A stretch of DNA of 22,107 nucleotides from a virus, in IMG/VR virus record IMGVR_UViG_3300037504_000178, positions 1 through 22,107 of that record; one strand, given 5' to 3'. Below are positions 815 through 14,710 of this stretch, in pieces. Within the stretch, counting starts at the first letter, position 1, and the number at the start of each line of letters is the position of its first letter. A program made the translations under genes and the position numbers. Below the pieces are notes generated by a model. It was not told where the DNA came from. It saw only the letters and a list, made by a program, of their open reading frames with translations, and made no database searches.

Positions 815-3133
815 CTAGCCTGCCTTGACCACCTGGACCAAGCTGCTGCTGATGGGGATCATCTCCACGCACTCGTACGGGCCAACGGCCAAGTCCGCGC
901 TGTTCGGCGTCCGGATTTTGGAAGCGTTGTACTTGAGCGTGAACGTGTTGCTGGCGTCGCCGTTGCGAACCACGATGCGCGGGCAGTCGGCCGGAATGGC
1001 CGAAAAGTCGATGTCGGTCACGTTCACGCTGCCGCCCGGCGTGTACACGTTGAGCGTGCGATCGACTGTCATCACGCCGCCAGAAACGCTGCCGACACTG
1101 CCCCACGGCCTGTAGGCAATCGTGTCCGCGCGTTCCAGGGACACGCCGGATGGCCGCGCTTCTTGTGGTCGAAAATCCCGCGCGCGATCATTTCCGCCCA
1201 CGACATCGCGGATACGGTACTCGCGGCCGGCGGTTACACCTTCAATCGTGTTTTCGCCGAGGATGACAGTTGAGGCGCTGTTGGTGTCCTGGAATTGAGC
1301 CGAAATCCCGTTGCTCGTCGTCACGCCGTCGCCGGTGATCTTGTTGTGATTGACCATCGTGCCGGTCATGCGGACGGCCGTGTCCGTTTCGACGAGCGCG
1401 ATGCCATCCCACCCTGTCTCGGTGATTGACGAGCGGCGTTGCAGCACTCGGTTATGGTGGATATTGCCGTCTCGGGCCGGCCCGCCGCTGGTGCCGTACA
1501 GGATGCCGCCGCCAGTCGTGTCCAGGATGGTGTTATCGTGGATGGTAATGTCGGTGGCGTATTCGTTGTAGGTGCCACTCTCCCACCAGCCGTTTGCCAG
1601 CACACCAAACTTGTTGGCCTGCAAGCGGACCAGGTGGACAAGCTCGTCGACGTAGGTCTGCGGCAACGCCTCGTCCAGCGTGATGTCGGTGCCGCTAATT
1701 GACGAATAAGTCGCGATGAACACCGGCTGGTTAGTGTATTCCGGGATGATCGCGAGCGCGCCCGACGACAAAAAGCCGCTCGCGTCGTCCACCGTGAGCG
1801 TGGTCGATCCGCGATTGCCGTTGCAGGTGGCGAACACCTCACTGTCGACCTCGGCGCCAGCGCCCACGATCACGTTGTCATGGACCGACCCGTTCTGCGG
1901 CCCGTAGGTCATCATCACGCCGTTGCTGCCGCACAGCAGGACCGTGTTGTCGTGGCAGGTGAAGTTGCGGATGCCGCTGTACGGCCCCTGCGACCAATCG
2001 CTCGTCGCGGTCGCCTGCAAACTGACCGGGGTCGGGTTAATGAGGACGACCTGCGCGTTTTGGTCGTCCGTGATCGAGCGCACCTGCACGATGGCAAAGT
2101 CCGAGCCGTCGCGCAGGATGTAGGGATCGCCGATCCGCACGGTCGTGAAAGCGTTGGCGGTGTCCGACGACAGCGTGACCTCGTCACCGCGATTATAGCT
2201 GCTGCCTGTAAGCGTCAACTCCTCGGACGTCGAGTTCACCAGCTCGATTGAGCCCAGGAAAATCCCGTTGATGTCGCTGGCGACGATGACGTTGCCGCTG
2301 ACATGCACCCACTGGTTTGAGCGGCTGATCGAGAACCCGTTGTCCAGCGAGTACCAGAACAGGTTGTCGATGAAGCGGACGGCGTTGCAATTGATGATGC
2401 CGGGATCGGCGTTCAGGCGCGTGTGCTTGTTCCGCTGATAGACGACGAGGCCCACGTCGTCGATCTTTACCGACCCCTCGCCCATGTTCTCGAACTCGCA
2501 GTCTTCGATGACCGCGACAGTCCGCTCGCCAAGCACGCCATCAATGTTGATGGCCTGCTTCATCTTCTTGTTCGACGTACCCGTGGGTTTGTAGGGATAG
2601 GTGTCGCGCTGCGCCTCGCCGTTGAACTTGAGGTTGGCGAAGTACGCGCGCCGGACCCGGCGGTCGGTGCCGTCCGATGTCGCCTGAGAGAAGAACGGAA
2701 TGATCCCGGCCGCCGCGCGGATCTCGACCAGTCCACCGCGCGGGCCGAAGAAAATACAGTCGGACCCGTCGACGGGCTCAAGATGATCGCCGAAGTAGTA
2801 CCCGTCCCCGCTCGGCGGCGGGAGATAGACCGGCAGGCCCGTGTCCTGCGCCGCCTTCATCGCCGGCTGGTCATCGTGCAGCGTACCGCCCCACACGCTG
2901 CTGCCGGCGTCGGCGTCGAAGTCCTGCGGGGTGACGTAGAAGCCCGTTTCCAGGGCCGACGCTACCGTCCGGCTGATCGCACCTGTATAATCTGGGGTGT
3001 AGGAAGTATTTGCCGCCGTCAGCAGCTGGTCTTTGCGCGTGTGCTTACTTGACCCGTCCGACGCATCGCTGACGAAAAAGCGATCAGCGTCTGCGACATT
3101 GGAAAGATTTGGCAGGTCGGCGGACTTCGGCAT
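815..3133 (-). CDS. Tail spike / receptor-binding protein with right-handed beta-helix
   Basis: A 772-residue protein at the distal end of the tail cluster, likely binding and possibly degrading host surface polysaccharide. Residues 1-45 look like a tail-attachment segment (ADLPNLSNVADADRFFVSDA). Residues about 64-120 match the pectate-lyase-3 type start (VTPQDFDADAG, then GGTLHDDQPAMKAA, then PVYLPP). From about 160 to 630 there are repeated beta-helix turns such as VSGNVIVASDINGIFLG, FTCHDNTVLLCGSNGVMM and ITIHDNTILDTTGGGILYG. Two non-helical inserts interrupt the helix, at about 294-387 and 430-510. Residues about 670-772 form a separate C-terminal beta domain. It starts 9 bases after the tail-tip stop. 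Catalytic residues cannot be assigned from sequence alone, so depolymerase activity is a possibility only. Confidence 0.85.
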   Translation of the reverse strand: MPKSADLPNLSNVADADRFFVSDASDGSSKHTRKDQLLTAANTSYTPDYTGAISRTVASALETGFYVTPQDFDADAGSSVWGGTLHDDQPAMKAAQDTGLPVYLPPPSGDGYYFGDHLEPVDGSDCIFFGPRGGLVEIRAAAGIIPFFSQATSDGTDRRVRRAYFANLKFNGEAQRDTYPYKPTGTSNKKMKQAINIDGVLGERTVAVIEDCEFENMGEGSVKIDDVGLVVYQRNKHTRLNADPGIINCNAVRFIDNLFWYSLDNGFSISRSNQWVHVSGNVIVASDINGIFLGSIELVNSTSEELTLTGSSYNRGDEVTLSSDTANAFTTVRIGDPYILRDGSDFAIVQVRSITDDQNAQVVLINPTPVSLQATATSDWSQGPYSGIRNFTCHDNTVLLCGSNGVMMTYGPQNGSVHDNVIVGAGAEVDSEVFATCNGNRGSTTLTVDDASGFLSSGALAIIPEYTNQPVFIATYSSISGTDITLDEALPQTYVDELVHLVRLQANKFGVLANGWWESGTYNEYATDITIHDNTILDTTGGGILYGTSGGPARDGNIHHNRVLQRRSSITETGWDGIALVETDTAVRMTGTMVNHNKITGDGVTTSNGISAQFQDTNSASTVILGENTIEGVTAGREYRIRDVVGGNDRARDFRPQEARPSGVSLERADTIAYRPWGSVGSVSGGVMTVDRTLNVYTPGGSVNVTDIDFSAIPADCPRIVVRNGDASNTFTLKYNASKIRTPNSADLAVGPYECVEMIPISSSLVQVVKAG

Positions 3134-3142
3134 CTTCGGCCC

Positions 3143-5701
3143 CTACTCGTTAAACAGCGTTGCGGTCAGCTCAGTGTCGGCGGAAATGTCGGGCAGCGGC
3201 GACGCCGACGCGGCGCGTGCATAGGCCGCGACGGTGGCGTTAGTCGCTTTTTGGAATCCAGTTGTGGCGACGCTTATGGTGCCGCTTAGTGGAACCGATA
3301 CGGTTTTGCGCTCTACGGTCTTGCCGGCGACCTGCAACCACACGTCGACGTCGCCGGCTGCGGTTCCGCCCTCGGTCAATGTGAACAGCGCGGCGCCGAA
3401 TGACGGCCCGTTGCCCGACAAGGTGACGCTCGCCGTCTGCGTGTTGTTGTCCGGCACGGAGACGCCGGTCGTGGTGCTGGTCGTGGTCGTCGAGACCACC
3501 TGGTCGCTTAGGTCCCCACCATCGACGGTGTCAGCGGCCGGCGTCGTCTGGCTCGTAATCGCCGTCCAATCCGATTGAGCGCCGTTCGCACTGATAAAAC
3601 GGACGCGGAAGTCGTAGTCGGTGTTCTGCGCCAAAGCCGCGACTTCGGCCTCTGTCTGGTCGCCCGGCACCGTGACAGCCGGTTTCCAGTTGCTGGCGCT
3701 GGACAGCTTGAACTGAACCTGCGCCAGCCCGCCCTTGCGGACGAACTGGTCGGCGGCGAGATCCCAACTGATCGTGCCGTCGATCTGGAGCTTGAGCGTC
3801 GTCGCGTAGGTAACAGAAAGGCCAGTTGGCGCGGCCGGGCGCGTTGTCGTCAACACCGTCTCAGGAGCGGGATCGACGGCGGTTTCTTCCGTGTCGGCCC
3901 AACTGTAGACGTCGGGCGCGGTCTCGCGCAGCTCCATGTCGACGCCGAGCCGCGGCACGTCGTTTTCGTCCGTCTCAACCGCCAACTGCCAGGACACGAC
4001 CTCAAACGGCTTTTCGCTCCAGCCAAAGCGGTCGTTGTTGATCGCCACGATGTCGCCGGGTTGCGTCTGCAGCGCACGCAAGTTTGCCGGGTAGCTGACG
4101 CGGATCTCATTTCGATGCCGGCGCAGCTTGATCTTGGCCAGCCGCTGCGCTTGATGCGGGCGCGTCGTAAACGGCAGGTCGTGCTCGCCCCAAAGCCGTT
4201 CGCCGTCTTCAGTCTTCGCGCTGTCGCTCTTGTAGACCGGATAATCGGTCGGCACGCCGTCTTGAATCTCCGGCGCGTACACGCCCTTGACCGCATTGAA
4301 CCGCTCCCGGCGGCTGTGCCGAGTGCGGACGCCGATCGTGTCGCGAGCGTCGTCTTCGTCCAGCGTCAGCGTCGGGCTGCGATAGCTGCCGGCAAACAGC
4401 TTCCAGGTGTCGCCGACGTGGACCGCGTAGCCGGCCATGCTCGTCAGCATGTCCGTCAAAATTTGGTCCGGCTGTCGGCTCTGCTTAACCGTGCCGTTGA
4501 GCGTGTACCGCGGCTCGCCAGTCTTGGTAACGGTGATGTCGCCGCTACCGGCGTCGGTGATGTCGACAAACTTTCCGGCCAGCGCGTCGGCGTAGGTGCT
4601 CGCTAGCTCAAACTGTGGATCGGCGCCGTCGTCAGTGCGCTTCCGCCGGTTGACAATCACATAGTAGCTAACTCCGGCCACCAAACCAGCCGGAACACTG
4701 CCAGTTGACGATACTTTCACGCGGTCGCCAGTAACAAGCTCCAGCAGCCGTCCGTCATGCTCCATCCAGTTACCGGTAGCGCTGACAGAAATAATTTCAA
4801 AGTTCTTGGGTTGAGTGGCGACAATCTCGTCACAGGTATTTGCCGCGCCTGCTGTGTAGGCGTCGTCAATCTCGGCAGCCGTGTAACCAACGCCGCCGTC
4901 CGTCGTCGACGTCAACAGGTAGTCGCGCACGCACAGTGCACTGTTGGGCGTCCAGCGGATCGCGCCGTCGCGCACGTCCTTTACTTCCTTGCCTTTGATC
5001 CAGGCGCTGATGTTCGGAATGCCGGCCGGAAAAACGTCCTGATCGTACTCAAGCCGGACGTAGACGTAGGCGATGCCGCGGAAGCGATAGCTATCAGTGG
5101 CGCCGGTTTCGGCCACAAGATCGGCGTCCGCCGCCTGATCGTCGGCGCCGTTGCCGAACTTGATGCGGACCAACCCGTCGTACTTGTTGGGCGCCTGCAC
5201 GAGCCCGTTGCCGTCAAGCTCGCTGCGGTAGATCGGATACTCGTCCAGATACACCGCGTCAAACTGGTGGACCTTATGATCCGCCATTGCGACGATCATG
5301 TGTAGGTACTTGTTGTCGTCGGTGCTCTCGACGAACAGGATCGGCCCGGACACGCGCGCCTCACCGTAAATCATCCGGCGGGCGTTGATCGGCTGGCGCA
5401 CCTGCTGTGCCCGGTCGCTAAGGTCGTTGGACAACGGCGACCCAAGCGACGGCGGGTCCGGCGCCAAGGCTTGCGACGCGGCCGACGCGGCGAGGCTGAG
5501 GGCGAAAGTGCCGGCGCCGATGGCGATGGCGCTGGCCGTGGTCGACAAGCCCAAGATTGTCGTGCCGGCCAAGGCCGCGCCACCGCCGGCCGCGATTCCG
5601 GAAATGGCCGCGCCGGCAATGGCGCTGGCCGTAACAGGCATACAAACGCCGGCCGCTTCCAGCTCGCGCCGGAGGCCGTAAGGAGCTGCGGTGTTTTTCA
5701 T
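3143..5701 (-). CDS. Tail tip / central hub protein (gpJ-like, Phage-tail_3 type)
   Basis: An 852-residue protein that should form the tail tip and contact the host; it is the positional counterpart of lambda J and of the large GTA tip protein. Residues 22-80 are Ala/Gly-rich and hydrophobic, with a possible membrane-inserting segment. Residues about 95-290 (QPINARRMIYGEARVSGPI, FDAVYLDEYPIY, YVYVRLEYD) are typical of the N-terminal hub region. Residues 398-600 (RYTLNGTV to VSWQLAVETDEN) hold the conserved phage tail domain. A roughly 100-residue extra domain (about 297-396) is inserted between CDE and RYTLNGTV. A fibronectin type III domain covers about 621-722, followed by a Thr-rich linker (about 736-746) and a C-terminal beta domain to 852. 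The ATG at 5701 overlaps the upstream stop (ATGA). Confidence 0.88.
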   Translation of the reverse strand: MKNTAAPYGLRRELEAAGVCMPVTASAIAGAAISGIAAGGGAALAGTTILGLSTTASAIAIGAGTFALSLAASAASQALAPDPPSLGSPLSNDLSDRAQQVRQPINARRMIYGEARVSGPILFVESTDDNKYLHMIVAMADHKVHQFDAVYLDEYPIYRSELDGNGLVQAPNKYDGLVRIKFGNGADDQAADADLVAETGATDSYRFRGIAYVYVRLEYDQDVFPAGIPNISAWIKGKEVKDVRDGAIRWTPNSALCVRDYLLTSTTDGGVGYTAAEIDDAYTAGAANTCDEIVATQPKNFEIISVSATGNWMEHDGRLLELVTGDRVKVSSTGSVPAGLVAGVSYYVIVNRRKRTDDGADPQFELASTYADALAGKFVDITDAGSGDITVTKTGEPRYTLNGTVKQSRQPDQILTDMLTSMAGYAVHVGDTWKLFAGSYRSPTLTLDEDDARDTIGVRTRHSRRERFNAVKGVYAPEIQDGVPTDYPVYKSDSAKTEDGERLWGEHDLPFTTRPHQAQRLAKIKLRRHRNEIRVSYPANLRALQTQPGDIVAINNDRFGWSEKPFEVVSWQLAVETDENDVPRLGVDMELRETAPDVYSWADTEETAVDPAPETVLTTTRPAAPTGLSVTYATTLKLQIDGTISWDLAADQFVRKGGLAQVQFKLSSASNWKPAVTVPGDQTEAEVAALAQNTDYDFRVRFISANGAQSDWTAITSQTTPAADTVDGGDLSDQVVSTTTTSTTTGVSVPDNNTQTASVTLSGNGPSFGAALFTLTEGGTAAGDVDVWLQVAGKTVERKTVSVPLSGTISVATTGFQKATNATVAAYARAASASPLPDISADTELTATLFNE

Positions 5702-6114
5702 CCGATCCGCCAGGCTCGTTTAATGCTGGTGCGCGGGTGCCGGGCCAGGCCCGGACTGGCGGCGGCGACGACGGTGCGTTCCTCGACGATGCCGCACGTC
5801 TCGCCGCCCTCAGCCTCGATCACGGCCACGTCGCCGCGGCCGGCATACCCAGGGGCGATTTCAGGGCAGCCGTGCGCGGCCATGCGCGCGGCCACGACGC
5901 CGACGACGCCGCCGTACTCGGTCAAAATGCGGCGCGCGCCATCGCGTCCGCTGTAGGGACGCACTAGGCCGGCCGGATCGATGCCGGTTTGCGCTTTCAC
6001 GGCATCGCAGACAAACGCGCAGCAGTCGTGCTGACCGTATTCCCAAGCAGTCTCGGTGCGCGCGGCCAGAAACGCCGCCAACCGCTCCGGCCAGTCCTGT
6101 CGCCGCGGCAGCAC
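5698..6114 (-). CDS. NlpC/P60-like tail protein (DUF6950 type, gpK position)
   Basis: A 138-residue protein with the motif EYGQHDCCAFVCDAV at about residues 25-39, which contains the Cys nucleophile signature of small phage NlpC/P60-like papain-fold proteins. The following YSGRDGARRILTEYGG, PGYAGRGDVAVIE and terminal KRAWRIG fit the DUF6950 pattern. Members sit just before the tail-tip gene, as lambda K does, and may trim peptidoglycan during DNA entry or act as a structural tip part. The usual downstream catalytic His is not obvious (TCGIVEERTV where one would expect an HVGI-like motif), so enzymatic activity is uncertain. The start is GTG at 6114, because the reverse complement of 6112-6114 is GTG. 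It overlaps the previous stop as TAGTG. No in-frame ATG lies near. Confidence 0.8.
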   Translation of the reverse strand: MLPRRQDWPERLAAFLAARTETAWEYGQHDCCAFVCDAVKAQTGIDPAGLVRPYSGRDGARRILTEYGGVVGVVAARMAAHGCPEIAPGYAGRGDVAVIEAEGGETCGIVEERTVVAAASPGLARHPRTSIKRAWRIG

Positions 6115-11416: not shown

Positions 11417-11919
11417 CGCCCGGTACTCAACTGGTCAAGCGCGCGCCGGATCGCCCGGCGCGATTCCTCGGTGAAGTACCGCCGGTTGACGTCCATCGCC
11501 GGCCGCATGAACGGCCGCGCCGGCTGCGGCGGGATATTACGGCTCGGCACGCCTTTGGTGCCGAACTCGTACCAGTAGGCCTTGAAAAACTGGAACAGCT
11601 CCTCGCTCTTGGCCTTGGACAGCCGCACGCTGGACCGCCGGGCCGCGCCGAACGCCGACCGCGCGCCGCCGGCGCGCTGGTTCTTTCGCGCCGCCAGATC
11701 GGCTGCCTTGGCGCTGGGACCAACAACCGCGGTCAACCCGTCGCGGCCGTACTTGACCTCGATGCTCTGCTTAATGCTGGTCGGCTGCACCCGCGCGATC
11801 GCGTCCAGGCGCACGGCCTCGGCGCCGTTGCGCACGACCTCGACCACGCCATCGCTGATCTGGTCCGGCGCCCGGCGCAAGGTCCGGCGCAGGCGGTTGA
11901 CGCCCTTGATGCCGCTCAT
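11413..11919 (-). CDS. HK97 gp10-like head-tail joining / tail completion protein
   Basis: A 168-residue protein of the HK97 gp10 group, which takes part in head-tail joining or tail completion. The start GIKGVNRLRRTLRRAPDQI, the basic Ala/Arg stretch around residues 70-95, and YWYEFGTKGVPSRNIPPQP followed by FMRPAMD are characteristic (the EFGT and PARPFMRPA motifs). It couples by ATGA to the head-closure gene before it and to the DUF3168 gene after it. Confidence 0.88.
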   Translation of the reverse strand: MSGIKGVNRLRRTLRRAPDQISDGVVEVVRNGAEAVRLDAIARVQPTSIKQSIEVKYGRDGLTAVVGPSAKAADLAARKNQRAGGARSAFGAARRSSVRLSKAKSEELFQFFKAYWYEFGTKGVPSRNIPPQPARPFMRPAMDVNRRYFTEESRRAIRRALDQLSTGR

Positions 11920-12269
11920 GGTAGTGCGTCCTGCTTGTCGCCACTGGCCGCCTCAATGCGCATGTACGGCGCGCGCGGGCCGTGGTCTTCGATGAAGCCG
12001 ATGCCGAAGGCCATGCCGTTCCACACCAGCGCCATGTCTTCGGTCACGCCGGCATCACGGCGCATGGTGAACTCGGTGTCGCGCGGGTAGTCGGTCTGGG
12101 CCGCCGCGAACCGCCGCTCGCCGCTCATGGTGCGGACTTTCATCCAGCGGGTAGCGAAGTCTTGCCAGGTCTCGGTGAACCCGCCGGCGCCGTCGGAGAC
12201 CTGCACGCGCTCGCGGATGGTGACGCGCTGGTCAAGCTCGCCTGGGTCGAGTTGCAGGCCTGTGGTCAT
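11916..12269 (-). CDS. Head closure / head-tail adaptor protein (Phage_H_T_join-like)
   Basis: A 117-residue beta-barrel protein that closes the portal-connector channel and presents the tail docking surface (SPP1 gp16-type). The start LDPGELDQRVTIRERVQ, then GAGGFTETWQDFATRWMKVR, and the middle GERRFAAAQTDYPRDTEFTMR are standard for this family. It would normally follow the gp6-like connector directly, but here three carbohydrate-type genes lie between them. It starts with ATG 12269, overlapping the glycosyltransferase stop (ATGA). Confidence 0.9.
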   Translation of the reverse strand: MTTGLQLDPGELDQRVTIRERVQVSDGAGGFTETWQDFATRWMKVRTMSGERRFAAAQTDYPRDTEFTMRRDAGVTEDMALVWNGMAFGIGFIEDHGPRAPYMRIEAASGDKQDALP

Positions 12270-12868
12270 GGTTGCCAGTCCACCTCATGCGGCCGCGGCT
12301 TCCCGTGGAAGCACACCACCCGCGCGCCGGGCGTGCGGCCGTGCACCTTGTAGCTCACCACCGCGCCGGGCGCGGCGTCCTGCCAGGTCGCCAGCCGGCC
12401 GCCGACCCGCGCGCTGATGAACGCCTGGTCGCCCCAGCGGTCGCCGGTCCGGTGCGTCGCCATGACGTGCTGTGCGTCCGCGGCGAACGCGTCGTAGAGC
12501 GCGCTCCTGTCGCCGTGCCAGCCCATGACGCCGGAGCCGTGCCGGTCGGGCCGCGTGAAGTCCTGGAGCATCAGGAAGCGGTCGGGCTGGATCGCCTGCG
12601 CCAGCGGCGTCAGGTCGCCGGTGACGATCGTGTCCAAGTCCAGGTACAGCGTCGGCCCGGTCAGCAGGCCGGGGCGGAACAGCTCCAGCTTGCTCCACCA
12701 GCCCGGCCAGCCATGTTTCAGCGCGTGCGTCGCCACCTCTGGCACGTCCGACAAGCAGACGAAGCGCGCGCCCGGCAAATGCTGTTTGACGCCGGCGTGC
12801 AGGCGGTGGACGTATTCGAGCGTGAAGTCGCCGCCGCTTTTCAACACCGCTGCGACGGTGACGGTCAC
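12266..12868 (-). CDS. Glycosyltransferase, GT-A fold with DxD motif
   Basis: A 200-residue protein. The N-terminal VTVAAVLKSGGDFTLEYVHR and then PGARFVCLSDVPEV form the nucleotide-sugar-binding half. LYLDLDTIVTGDL contains a DxD motif (Asp77, Asp79) that would bind Mn2+ and the sugar nucleotide. The end, VVCFHGKPRPHEVDW, has the His/Gly/Lys cluster (about 186-196) seen at the C-terminus of GT8-like retaining enzymes. It therefore probably moves a sugar from a nucleotide donor to an unknown acceptor. No signal peptide or membrane segment is seen, so it acts in the cytoplasm. The start is GTG 12868, overlapping the sulfotransferase stop as GTGA, with GGGAG 7-8 bases upstream. An earlier start would run far into the upstream gene. 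Confidence 0.8.
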   Translation of the reverse strand: MTVTVAAVLKSGGDFTLEYVHRLHAGVKQHLPGARFVCLSDVPEVATHALKHGWPGWWSKLELFRPGLLTGPTLYLDLDTIVTGDLTPLAQAIQPDRFLMLQDFTRPDRHGSGVMGWHGDRSALYDAFAADAQHVMATHRTGDRWGDQAFISARVGGRLATWQDAAPGAVVSYKVHGRTPGARVVCFHGKPRPHEVDWQP

Positions 12869-13443
12869 GCCGGGCTCCCATGCTTCCACAAAGCCGGATC
12901 GATCCACTCCCGCGCGGTCGCCTCGTCCAGCGTCAGCCCCAGCCGATCGAACGCCGGCCGGATCTGATCTAGCTCGCCCGCGACCAGCCGGTCGGTCCAG
13001 ACCTTCACCACCGGCCAGCCGGCCTCGGCGAGCTCGTCCATGATCGACCAGGCGCGCGGCACTGGCTGGCGGTTGGGGTTGAACCCGGCGTCGGCCCGGC
13101 TCGCCTCGATCTGCGCCTGCGGCCGGTAGCAGCAGACGATAGCGGCGATGTCCGGCACGTGCCGCCAGTAGCCGTCGAACCATTGCGCCCCGACCTTGGC
13201 GCCCCACGGCTGCCGGCCGTCCCAGCCCTGCTGGCGTAGCGCCGTCTTCCAGGCCATGTCGAAGCTGACCGGCCGTTGCCGGCCGTGCTCGACCTGCTTC
13301 CACCAACGGTTCTCAAAGTAGCCTTTGGGGTTGCGGTCGTCTGCGGCCATGCAGGTGCCGAAGAACACGCCATGCTGGGCGAACAGGCCGGCGGTCATGC
13401 TGGTGCCGCTGCGGCTGGCGCCGAGGATGACTACGCCGGGCAC
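12865..13443 (-). CDS. Sulfotransferase-like P-loop protein
   Basis: A 192-residue protein with the PAPS-dependent sulfotransferase signatures. The 5'-phosphosulfate loop GASRSGTSMTAGLF is at residues 8-21. A 3'-phosphate-binding element, CCYRPQAQIEASR, has Arg107 and Ser115 correctly spaced. DRNPKGYFEN at about 36-45 is typical of small bacterial and phage sulfotransferases. The reaction would be transfer of sulfate from PAPS to a hydroxyl or amine of a sugar or protein; the acceptor is unknown. A GTG start at 13443 with GAGG 10 bases upstream is preferred, because the next ATG (residue 16) would destroy the P-loop. It overlaps the upstream gene by 13 bases and is coupled to the glycosyltransferase after it. 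Confidence 0.8.
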   Translation of the reverse strand: MPGVVILGASRSGTSMTAGLFAQHGVFFGTCMAADDRNPKGYFENRWWKQVEHGRQRPVSFDMAWKTALRQQGWDGRQPWGAKVGAQWFDGYWRHVPDIAAIVCCYRPQAQIEASRADAGFNPNRQPVPRAWSIMDELAEAGWPVVKVWTDRLVAGELDQIRPAFDRLGLTLDEATAREWIDPALWKHGSPA

Positions 13444-14036
13444 GCCAGCACTTCCTCAATCGTCGCCCGCCGAAAGCCAGTGATCGCCGTCGCCCGACTG
13501 CAGTTGACCACCTCCACGCCGCGCCGCGCCAGATCCGGCGCCACCGCGTCGAAGTGCGCGACCCAGGCCGGCATGTCGTCGGCGTCCGGGTTGCCCAGCG
13601 GCGCCGGGTGCCGGCCGTGGTAGTGGATCTGGCCGCCGGTGTGCTGCATGTCGTAGCCGAGCAGAAGCACGCGGGCTGCGCCAAAGTTGACCGCGGCCAA
13701 GTGCAGCGCCTGGTAGCCGCTGTTCTGCCCGGCGCGGACGTGGCAAGGGCGATCGTCCAGCCCGCCGCCAGAGACGCAGATCAGCTTGGTGACGCCCGCC
13801 GGCGGATCGTCGACCAGGCAGGTCTTCAGCCGGTCGTAGGCGAGCGCGGCCGGGTGCGCGTGCCACCAGCGGCCGTCGCAGGCGTGGTGGACGTCCGCCC
13901 AAGGCGCCATATCCAAGCCAGCGTTGTTAACGGCGATGGTCGGCAGGCCGGCCGCGCGCACGGCATCGCAGTCGGCGCGCGTAAGCGAAGGGCCGCTGGC
14001 GATGCAGGCGACGGTGCGGCCGTGCCAGTCTTTCAT
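13431..14036 (-). CDS. Rossmann-type protein with GPSL motif (DUF115 / GT42 sialyltransferase-like)
   Basis: A 201-residue protein. It opens with RTVACIASGPSLTRADCDA, the 'xxSGPSL' nucleotide loop shared by DUF115 proteins and CstII-like sialyltransferases. It continues with IAVNNAGLDMAPWADVHHACD, NSGYQALHLAAVNFGAARVL, LLGYDMQHTGG, then NCSRATAITGFRRATIEEVL. That order (GPSL, SGxxA, LxGxD, NxS, terminal helix) is the family pattern. It is likely a glycosyltransferase or a sugar-nucleotide/phosphate enzyme; the exact reaction cannot be read. ATG 14036 overlaps the connector gene's stop (ATGA), so it is translated with the head genes. It is the first gene of the three-gene cassette. Confidence 0.75.
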   Translation of the reverse strand: MKDWHGRTVACIASGPSLTRADCDAVRAAGLPTIAVNNAGLDMAPWADVHHACDGRWWHAHPAALAYDRLKTCLVDDPPAGVTKLICVSGGGLDDRPCHVRAGQNSGYQALHLAAVNFGAARVLLLGYDMQHTGGQIHYHGRHPAPLGNPDADDMPAWVAHFDAVAPDLARRGVEVVNCSRATAITGFRRATIEEVLACPA

Positions 14037-14710
14037 ACTGCCTTCGTCCGGACCCGCAGCCCGGTCAGGATGTTGTCGACGTACGGCGTATGCTCGATGC
14101 TGCTGCCGATGTGCACGGCCGAGCGCGCCTGGTCGCGGGCGGCCACGCGCGCCTTGATGTACGTCTTCACGCGCTCCGGCACGGCGCTCGCGTCGTCGCC
14201 GTAGCCGGCGGTGTAATCGATTTGCACGGCCGCGCCGATGTCGTCGGTCGGCGGCCAAGTCTCGTCTTGATTCAGCTCGATGTAGCCGTAGGGGTGCGCG
14301 TCCGCGACGACGCGATAGCGGCTGCTGTCGAGCGTCTGCTCCTGGCCGTCTTCGTCGGTGTACTTGACCGCGTCGACCGTCTGCAGCGGCGGGAACGGCA
14401 GGTAGATGCGCCGGCCGCGGTTGTTCGGCAGCGGCTTGACCAGGTTGCGCGCTGGGTGCGGCACGTGATCGGGGAAGTAGTCGAGAGTCAGGCGCAGCGT
14501 CTGCGTGATGAGGCAGCGACCCAGCCAGCCGTGCGGCCCGTCCAGCTCGCCCGTCACGGCGTCGATCTCGCCCTGCAGGAACGCGTCGTCGGACGTGCCG
14601 TCGATGCGCAGGGCGAGCTTGACGTCGTCGAGCGTCACCGGGCTGTTGGCCGGCGCCGTTTCGACGGTCACCGCCGGGTTGAGCCAGAACTGCCGATCGT
14701 CGCGGTGCAT
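14033..14710 (-). CDS. Head-tail connector protein, HK97 gp6 / phiE125 gp8-like
   Basis: A 225-residue mainly helical protein that should form the ring under the portal. The pattern SPVTLDDVKLALRIDGTSDD, then LQGEIDAVTGELDGPHG, then LITQTLRLTLDYFP is the classic gp6-like connector start. Also present is LPPLQTVDAVKY-like PFPPLQTVDAVKYTDEDG, then a C-terminal helix VKTYIKARVAARDQA. It sits after the small basic protein and before the sugar cassette, with ATGA overlaps on both sides. Confidence 0.88.
   Translation of the reverse strand: MHRDDRQFWLNPAVTVETAPANSPVTLDDVKLALRIDGTSDDAFLQGEIDAVTGELDGPHGWLGRCLITQTLRLTLDYFPDHVPHPARNLVKPLPNNRGRRIYLPFPPLQTVDAVKYTDEDGQEQTLDSSRYRVVADAHPYGYIELNQDETWPPTDDIGAAVQIDYTAGYGDDASAVPERVKTYIKARVAARDQARSAVHIGSSIEHTPYVDNILTGLRVRTKAV

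Follow-up and report, generated by a model that had tools for sequence, protein, structure and literature searches.

A putative glycan-modification cassette with a sulfotransferase in the head-tail connector operon of an IMG/VR phage

Three overlapping genes lie between the head-tail adaptor gene and the head-completion gene of a phage in IMG/VR, and they encode a GPSL-type protein, a PAPS-type sulfotransferase (ST), and a GT8-like glycosyltransferase (GT). In many uncultured phages the same trio occupies the corresponding genomic region, and it is therefore probably a recurring kit that adds a sulfated sugar to the virus particle or to the host surface. The explanation that we hold with moderate confidence is that the genes are a phage-borne glycan-modification cassette within the connector operon, giving a sulfated glycan that is most likely attached to a virion protein. 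A glycan-modifying role had been proposed in an earlier note made from the bare sequence, and the enzyme families support it. Glycan modification by phages is known; the predicted sulfation and the location in the connector operon would be new.

Gene order in the connector region

The window, i.e., the whole stretch of 22,107 nucleotides that was analyzed, contains a standard late region of the HK97 type, encoded on the minus strand. TerS, TerL, portal, protease, capsid, and a gp6-like adaptor are encoded upstream of the three extra genes, while a head-completion protein (HCP), a gp10-like protein, a tail terminator, and a tail tube protein are encoded downstream (Table 1). The earlier note had placed three open reading frames between the adaptor and the head-completion gene and had listed four overlaps across the cassette and its borders (ATGA, 13 bases, GTGA, and ATGA, where the 13-base overlap is that of the ST gene with the GPSL gene); the placement is as described, and the overlaps are found exactly so. 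Its statement that the two connector genes are normally adjacent also holds, as gp6 and HCP are at most 150 bp apart in 42 and at most 300 bp apart in 47 of the 50 TerL-anchored relatives in which both genes were found. The virion genes on either side likewise bear out the late, structural setting, and the cassette is presumably co-translated with them late in infection.

Table 1. Features of the cassette and its borders in the window.
Feature	Position	Strand	Evidence
gp6-like head-tail adaptor, upstream cassette border	14033..14710	-	PF05135 (Phage_connect_1) 3.6e-6, above cut-off; phrog_442 7e-21
GPSL protein, 201 aa	13431..14036	-	phrog_4603 8e-44; MptE-like (PF01973, formerly DUF115) at family level
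PAPS-type sulfotransferase (ST), P-loop protein, 192 aa, GTG start	12865..13443	-	motifs, profile, AF2 fold
GT8-like GT-A glycosyltransferase (GT), 200 aa, GTG start	12266..12868	-	phrog_1962 1.3e-49; LDLDT, FHGxP
Head-completion/head-closure protein (HCP), downstream cassette border	11916..12269	-	PF05521 (Phage_HCP) 3.3e-21; phrog_25 1.9e-17
Exchangeable ST+GT segment	12260..13447	-	blastn of the window against L007, L008, and L009

Purine-rich stretches resembling Shine-Dalgarno sequences are found upstream of the starts, and the third-position GC content is 0.86-0.94 in all five genes. None of the five encodes a transmembrane-like stretch (the highest Kyte-Doolittle value for a 19-mer is 1.36), and from their sequences all three cassette proteins look soluble. 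No GtrA flippase or GtrB bactoprenol transferase is found beside the GT between 11916 and 14710. The signal is not one of chance; homologues and profile matches of the GPSL protein and the GT reach 1e-27 to 1e-49, the ST reaches 7e-25 (L056), and the trio recurs. Elsewhere in the window, positions 815-3133 encode a β-helix protein, perhaps a tail spike, and positions 5698-6114 a DUF6950 protein.

The three enzyme families

The earlier note had called the middle protein a PAPS-type sulfotransferase, and this call is upheld; from its motifs and its modeled fold the protein is predicted to bind PAPS and transfer sulfate. The family profile matches human tyrosylprotein sulfotransferases (TPST) at 6.9e-7, and seven of eight family members match Sulfotransfer_3. 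The protein found at the same place in a sister phage (L009) is above the cut-offs for both Sulfotransfer_3 and Sulfotransfer_4, while the window protein itself reaches 15 bits against a cut-off of 27 (E 0.031). In an alignment of 32 sequences R11, G13, G29, E44, R107, and S115 are invariant, and S12 and T14 are conserved at 90% or more. The invariant residues contribute to both phosphate-binding motifs: the 5'-phosphosulfate motif R11-S12-G13-T14, which is an RSGT-type loop following the first strand, and the 3'-phosphate motif R107-x7-S115, where the two residues are eight apart, a spacing which we take to be that of SULT1E1. The AF2 model has a pLDDT of 89.9, and its first match in the PDB is TPST2 (Foldseek E 4.4e-4, probability 1.00, TM-score about 0.57 by query length). 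TPST1 and TPST2 are thus the best solved relatives of the family both by profile and by fold, but they are Golgi enzymes of eukaryotes and share only 12-15% identity with the ST.

Guanylate and dephospho-CoA kinases follow the sulfotransferases in the Foldseek list, and together with the low Pfam score this could be taken to mean that the protein is instead a P-loop enzyme resembling nucleotide or sugar kinases. Such an identity is most improbable, given that the Walker A lysine is absent while the RSGT and R-x7-S motifs are present with an invariant glutamate, that the profile matches TPST, and that sulfotransferases rank first by fold.

The call of a GT-A glycosyltransferase for the third protein stands. 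The phrog_1962 profile, which represents the PmgQ family, covers residues 4-198 (E 1.3e-49), and PmgQ of phage P1 and a protein encoded by Citrobacter phage phiNP are homologous to it. It contains the sequence LDLDT at residues 76-80, which is a DxD motif, as well as FHGxP, and its family profile matches the GT8-like GT-A enzymes Skp1 galactosyltransferase (4.6e-5) and glycogenin (0.004). No Pfam family convincingly claims the protein; a lumazine-binding match (E 0.0026, below the cut-off and in one of 18 members) was treated as chance.

The GPSL protein had been described as GT42/DUF115-like, and only the second half of this description is retained. The phrog_4603 profile covers residues 12-200 (E 8.3e-44), and homologues are P1 PmgO, D3 Orf7, and PAJU2 gp10. 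The MptE-like family PF01973, formerly DUF115, is matched in 16 of 19 GPSL records and is above the cut-off of 34.6 bits in two relatives (L010 and L016, 36.6 and 37.2 bits). The window protein itself gave no PF01973 match in the same profile search, and the MptE-like assignment is therefore one by family. The CST-I profile (GT42, PF06002) matched none of the 19 GPSL records in a search run without a positive control, and CstII chains were reached at E 0.04-0.08 only. The AF2 model has a pLDDT of 91.9, and Foldseek returns generic Rossmann folds at TM-scores of about 0.3 and no specific transferase. A GT42 or sialyltransferase identity was rejected on these grounds, and the protein is a probable glycosyltransferase of the MptE-like kind as judged from its family. 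The DUF115 proteins are related to the Maf flagellin glycosyltransferases. Maf-dependent glycosylation of flagellin takes place in the cytoplasm (PMC4065374).

The name alpha-2,3-sialyltransferase that PHROGs and RefSeq phage records use for phrog_4603, P1 pmgO, and D3 orf7 looks unsupported, and MptE-like (PF01973) fits better. A TerL-matched phage (L229:6202-7023) encodes a further GPSL-type protein, missed by the seed profile, immediately upstream of gp6.

Recurrence and exchange of the cassette

The earlier note had suggested a search for the trio in other phage genomes. A scan of IMG/VR for the ST only, built on an alignment of distant ST members, gave 363 relatives, of which the nearest 80 were fetched; being the nearest to the query, these 80 loci are not a random sample. 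Among the 53 of them with at least 5.5 kb upstream, the GPSL gene is present in 45, the GT gene in 45, and the full trio on one strand in 38, and in the cases that were checked the trio lies between head and neck/tail genes. Seed-only profiles used without iteration gave identical counts for GPSL, GT, and trio. When the ST sequences are clustered at 60% identity, 11 of the 14 clusters contain the full trio. Contigs anchored on the GT already held the same ST and GPSL genes. In contrast, 47 control contigs matched by TerL contain two GPSL genes and no GT or ST gene, while gp6 is found in 45 and HCP in 43 of them; TerL was used as the anchor since a portal-based control had given too few loci.

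The commonest order is GPSL-GT-ST. The window has an ST of the second type with a GT directly after it, overlapping or adjoining, and this order is also found in L069, L091, L095, L105, and L142. Some cassettes, these five among them, encode a pair of differing sulfotransferases along with at least two glycosyltransferases, which suggests sulfation at more than one site or the use of alternative acceptors. Head and neck/tail genes also flank the cassette in L061 and L072, where the head types differ from that of the window. Cassettes of the L061/L064 type, from uncultured IMG/VR phages, have GPSL, a PmgQ-type GT, and ST in one run from the head to the neck/tail genes. They differ from the window in having the order GPSL-GT-ST, additional methyltransferase-like and hexapeptide genes, other head genes, and an ST that is only 27% identical to that of the window. 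An amidase- or endolysin-like gene (L061:11222-11665) separates the cassette from the neck genes. Cassettes led by GPSL are located between gp6 and HCP in Bradyrhizobium sp. NFR13 (L149), a cultured strain whose prophage carries gp6, GPSL, a GT9-like gene, and HCP, and in a MAG assigned to Anaerolineaceae (Chloroflexota; L153). In many podovirus-like contigs (L028-L063, e.g., L039:7148-8355) the capsid gene is separated from the tail tubular genes by genes for GPSL and a PmgQ-type GT. The larger cassettes add FkbM and other methyltransferases, GT9 (heptosyltransferase-like) and GT2 enzymes, a nucleotide-sugar epimerase, and hexapeptide acyltransferases, and these are parts of a small glycan pathway.

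Comparison by blastn with close relatives of the window displays exchange at gene borders. L007 is 94% identical to the window at the DNA level up to position 13447, at the end of the GPSL gene, and divergent beyond it; its capsid is 99% identical to that of the window, yet its ST differs. The capsids of L008 and L009 are unrelated to that of the window, while their GPSL genes are 82-84% identical to it as DNA. The match ends at 13447 in L008 and at 13376 in L009, the ST-GT region is divergent, and similarity resumes at 12251-12260 in both and continues at 83-84% into the tail genes. In L008 one other ST alone replaces the ST-GT pair between the conserved GPSL gene and HCP with the conserved downstream genes, while L009 has GPSL, another ST, and HCP plus about 3 kb of inserted DNA. 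The ST-GT pair therefore behaves as an allele that is exchanged as one unit at gene borders. The cassette is not tied to a single capsid protein, since GPSL is conserved across unrelated capsids and the ST changes under capsids that are 99% identical. Opposite-strand ORFs resembling HTH regulators are found after the sulfotransferase within the connector operon (L009:7926-10379 and L007:6639-6974), and L009 also has two transposase-like ORFs within this operon.

Such mosaic borders could also mean that the enzymes share no pathway and are cargo, accumulated independently at a head-tail module border where insertions are tolerated. The region holds other enzymes in phages D3 and PAJU2, and in L188 the genes between gp6 and HCP are unlike glycan enzymes. 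Independent accumulation is nevertheless improbable, as the three families occur together, mostly in one order and often as direct neighbors, across the 11 ST clusters, are nearly absent from this slot in TerL-matched phages, and belong to cassettes that contain almost exclusively glycan enzymes.

Known relatives and the possible acceptor

The GPSL and GT genes are not new; they correspond to the long-sequenced pmgO and pmgQ of P1 and orf7 of D3. The earlier claim that the trio is not a described system is thus half right, in that no description of a cassette with a sulfotransferase was found. No relatives of the ST were found by tblastn with two queries against 50,697 phage records or in PHROGs at E < 0.01, and exact 8-mers gave no close relatives in IMG/VR. 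UniProt does contain viral proteins named sulfotransferase, one of them from Xanthomonas phage FoX4. A phrase search of the open-access literature gave no paper devoted to the sulfotransferases of phages. We know of no report of sulfated virion glycans in bacteriophages.

In P1 the genes form the cluster pmgO-pmgP-ppp-pmgQ (the hdm genes of P7), where PmgO is 35% identical to the window GPSL protein and PmgQ 36% identical to the window GT. As in the window, pmgO and pmgQ are close together on one strand, and the pmgL-pmgQ stretch is headed by an annotated late promoter, LPpmgL. The P1 cluster differs in that it lacks a sulfotransferase, has a phosphatase gene in between, and lies outside the connector genes; the genes of phiNP are also outside the connector slot. 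PmgP (L003:7504-8130), next to PmgO, appears to be another GPSL-type protein with only faint similarity to PmgO, and the same pair is found in phiNP. P1 pmgO, pmgP, and pmgQ are dispensable for plaque formation (PMC10695390), and the cassette is accordingly seen as an accessory trait. The Pseudomonas phages D3 and PAJU2 have a GPSL homologue (36-43%) beside Ad1 or Hc1, and additional enzymes are encoded in the interval from Hc1 to the gp10/tail terminator genes. The partners are different, orf12 encoding a protein that is GT9-like as judged from its relatives and orf13 a methyltransferase, and the two phages have neither a sulfotransferase nor a PmgQ-type GT.

In mycobacteriophages such as Che8, capsid and tail proteins are reported to be glycosylated by phage-encoded glycosyltransferases (Freeman, 2023, via PMC12619734 and PMC11256854). 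The parts consulted of these two sources do not mention a sulfotransferase, and the GT genes of Maravista are there placed near the genome end, unlike the connector slot of the window.

Within the preferred explanation, the cassette, inserted in the head-tail connector operon, would be translated late in infection together with the genes of the virion. The first sugar would be attached or extended by the MptE-like GPSL protein, in the way that the related Maf enzymes act on cytoplasmic flagellin, and the GT8-like, PmgQ-type enzyme would add a further sugar. The ST would then cap this product, or a side chain of the acceptor, with sulfate from host PAPS; by analogy with TPST it may act on the side chains of virion proteins. 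The resulting particles would have a negatively charged, exchangeable coat glycan, which could alter adsorption, stability, or recognition. We infer the acceptor, the enzyme activities, the sugar donor, the order of the steps, and the benefit.

A structural protein of the virion is the most likely acceptor because the cassette is placed among virion genes and overlaps them translationally, because it has no membrane partners, because the nearest solved relatives (TPST, Skp1 galactosyltransferase, and glycogenin) modify proteins, and because the mycobacteriophages offer a precedent. Against this explanation are the fold of the GPSL protein, which has no specific transferase match, the weak Pfam score of the window ST, the location of the genes outside the connectors in P1 and phiNP, the dispensability of the P1 genes, and the lack of a link to one capsid protein.

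A serious rival, which we judge less likely, is that the cassette acts on a surface glycan of the host, such as LPS, O-antigen, or a capsule precursor, while this is still cytoplasmic, either in lysogens or at a late stage of infection. Such a modification would serve to block superinfection or the re-adsorption of progeny to debris. Seroconversion by phages is a well known strategy. The larger cassettes do resemble polysaccharide loci in their epimerase, GT2, GT9, methyltransferase, and hexapeptide acyltransferase genes, the cassette alleles are independent of the capsid type, and the P1 genes are non-essential. However, the window cassette contains no membrane partner such as a flippase or a GtrA/GtrB-like protein, its three enzymes look soluble, and conversion genes inside a virion operon would be unusual.

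Modification of DNA bases must also be considered. A thymidylate-synthase-like gene is the usual source of hydroxymethyl bases, and to our knowledge glycosylated DNA is not known in P1 or D3. Such a gene (PF00303) was found in only four of 21 contigs that bear the cassette or are related to those that do; these contigs may be incomplete, and the window itself is a fragment. The cassette genes are located within the virion operon, away from replication genes. Phage sulfotransferases have been listed among auxiliary genes and proposed to take part in DNA modification (PMC10829341, PMC8290583), and one published proposal assigns sulfotransferases and glycosyltransferases of phages a part in modifying nucleotides (Iyer, 2013, via PMC10829341). 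Hypermodification of DNA by these enzymes is nevertheless very unlikely.

With a virion acceptor as the preferred reading, it can tentatively be suggested that a widespread and hitherto unrecognized class of tailed phages decorates its own virions with a sulfated glycan by means of an exchangeable cassette in the connector operon. If the trio works as proposed, these phages have their own means of altering their coat, or the surface of the host, in charge and chemistry from within the virion operon. This would provide a function for pmgO and pmgQ of P1 and orf7 of D3, it would explain the repeated insertions at the border between the head and tail modules, and sulfation would join the known modifications made by phages.
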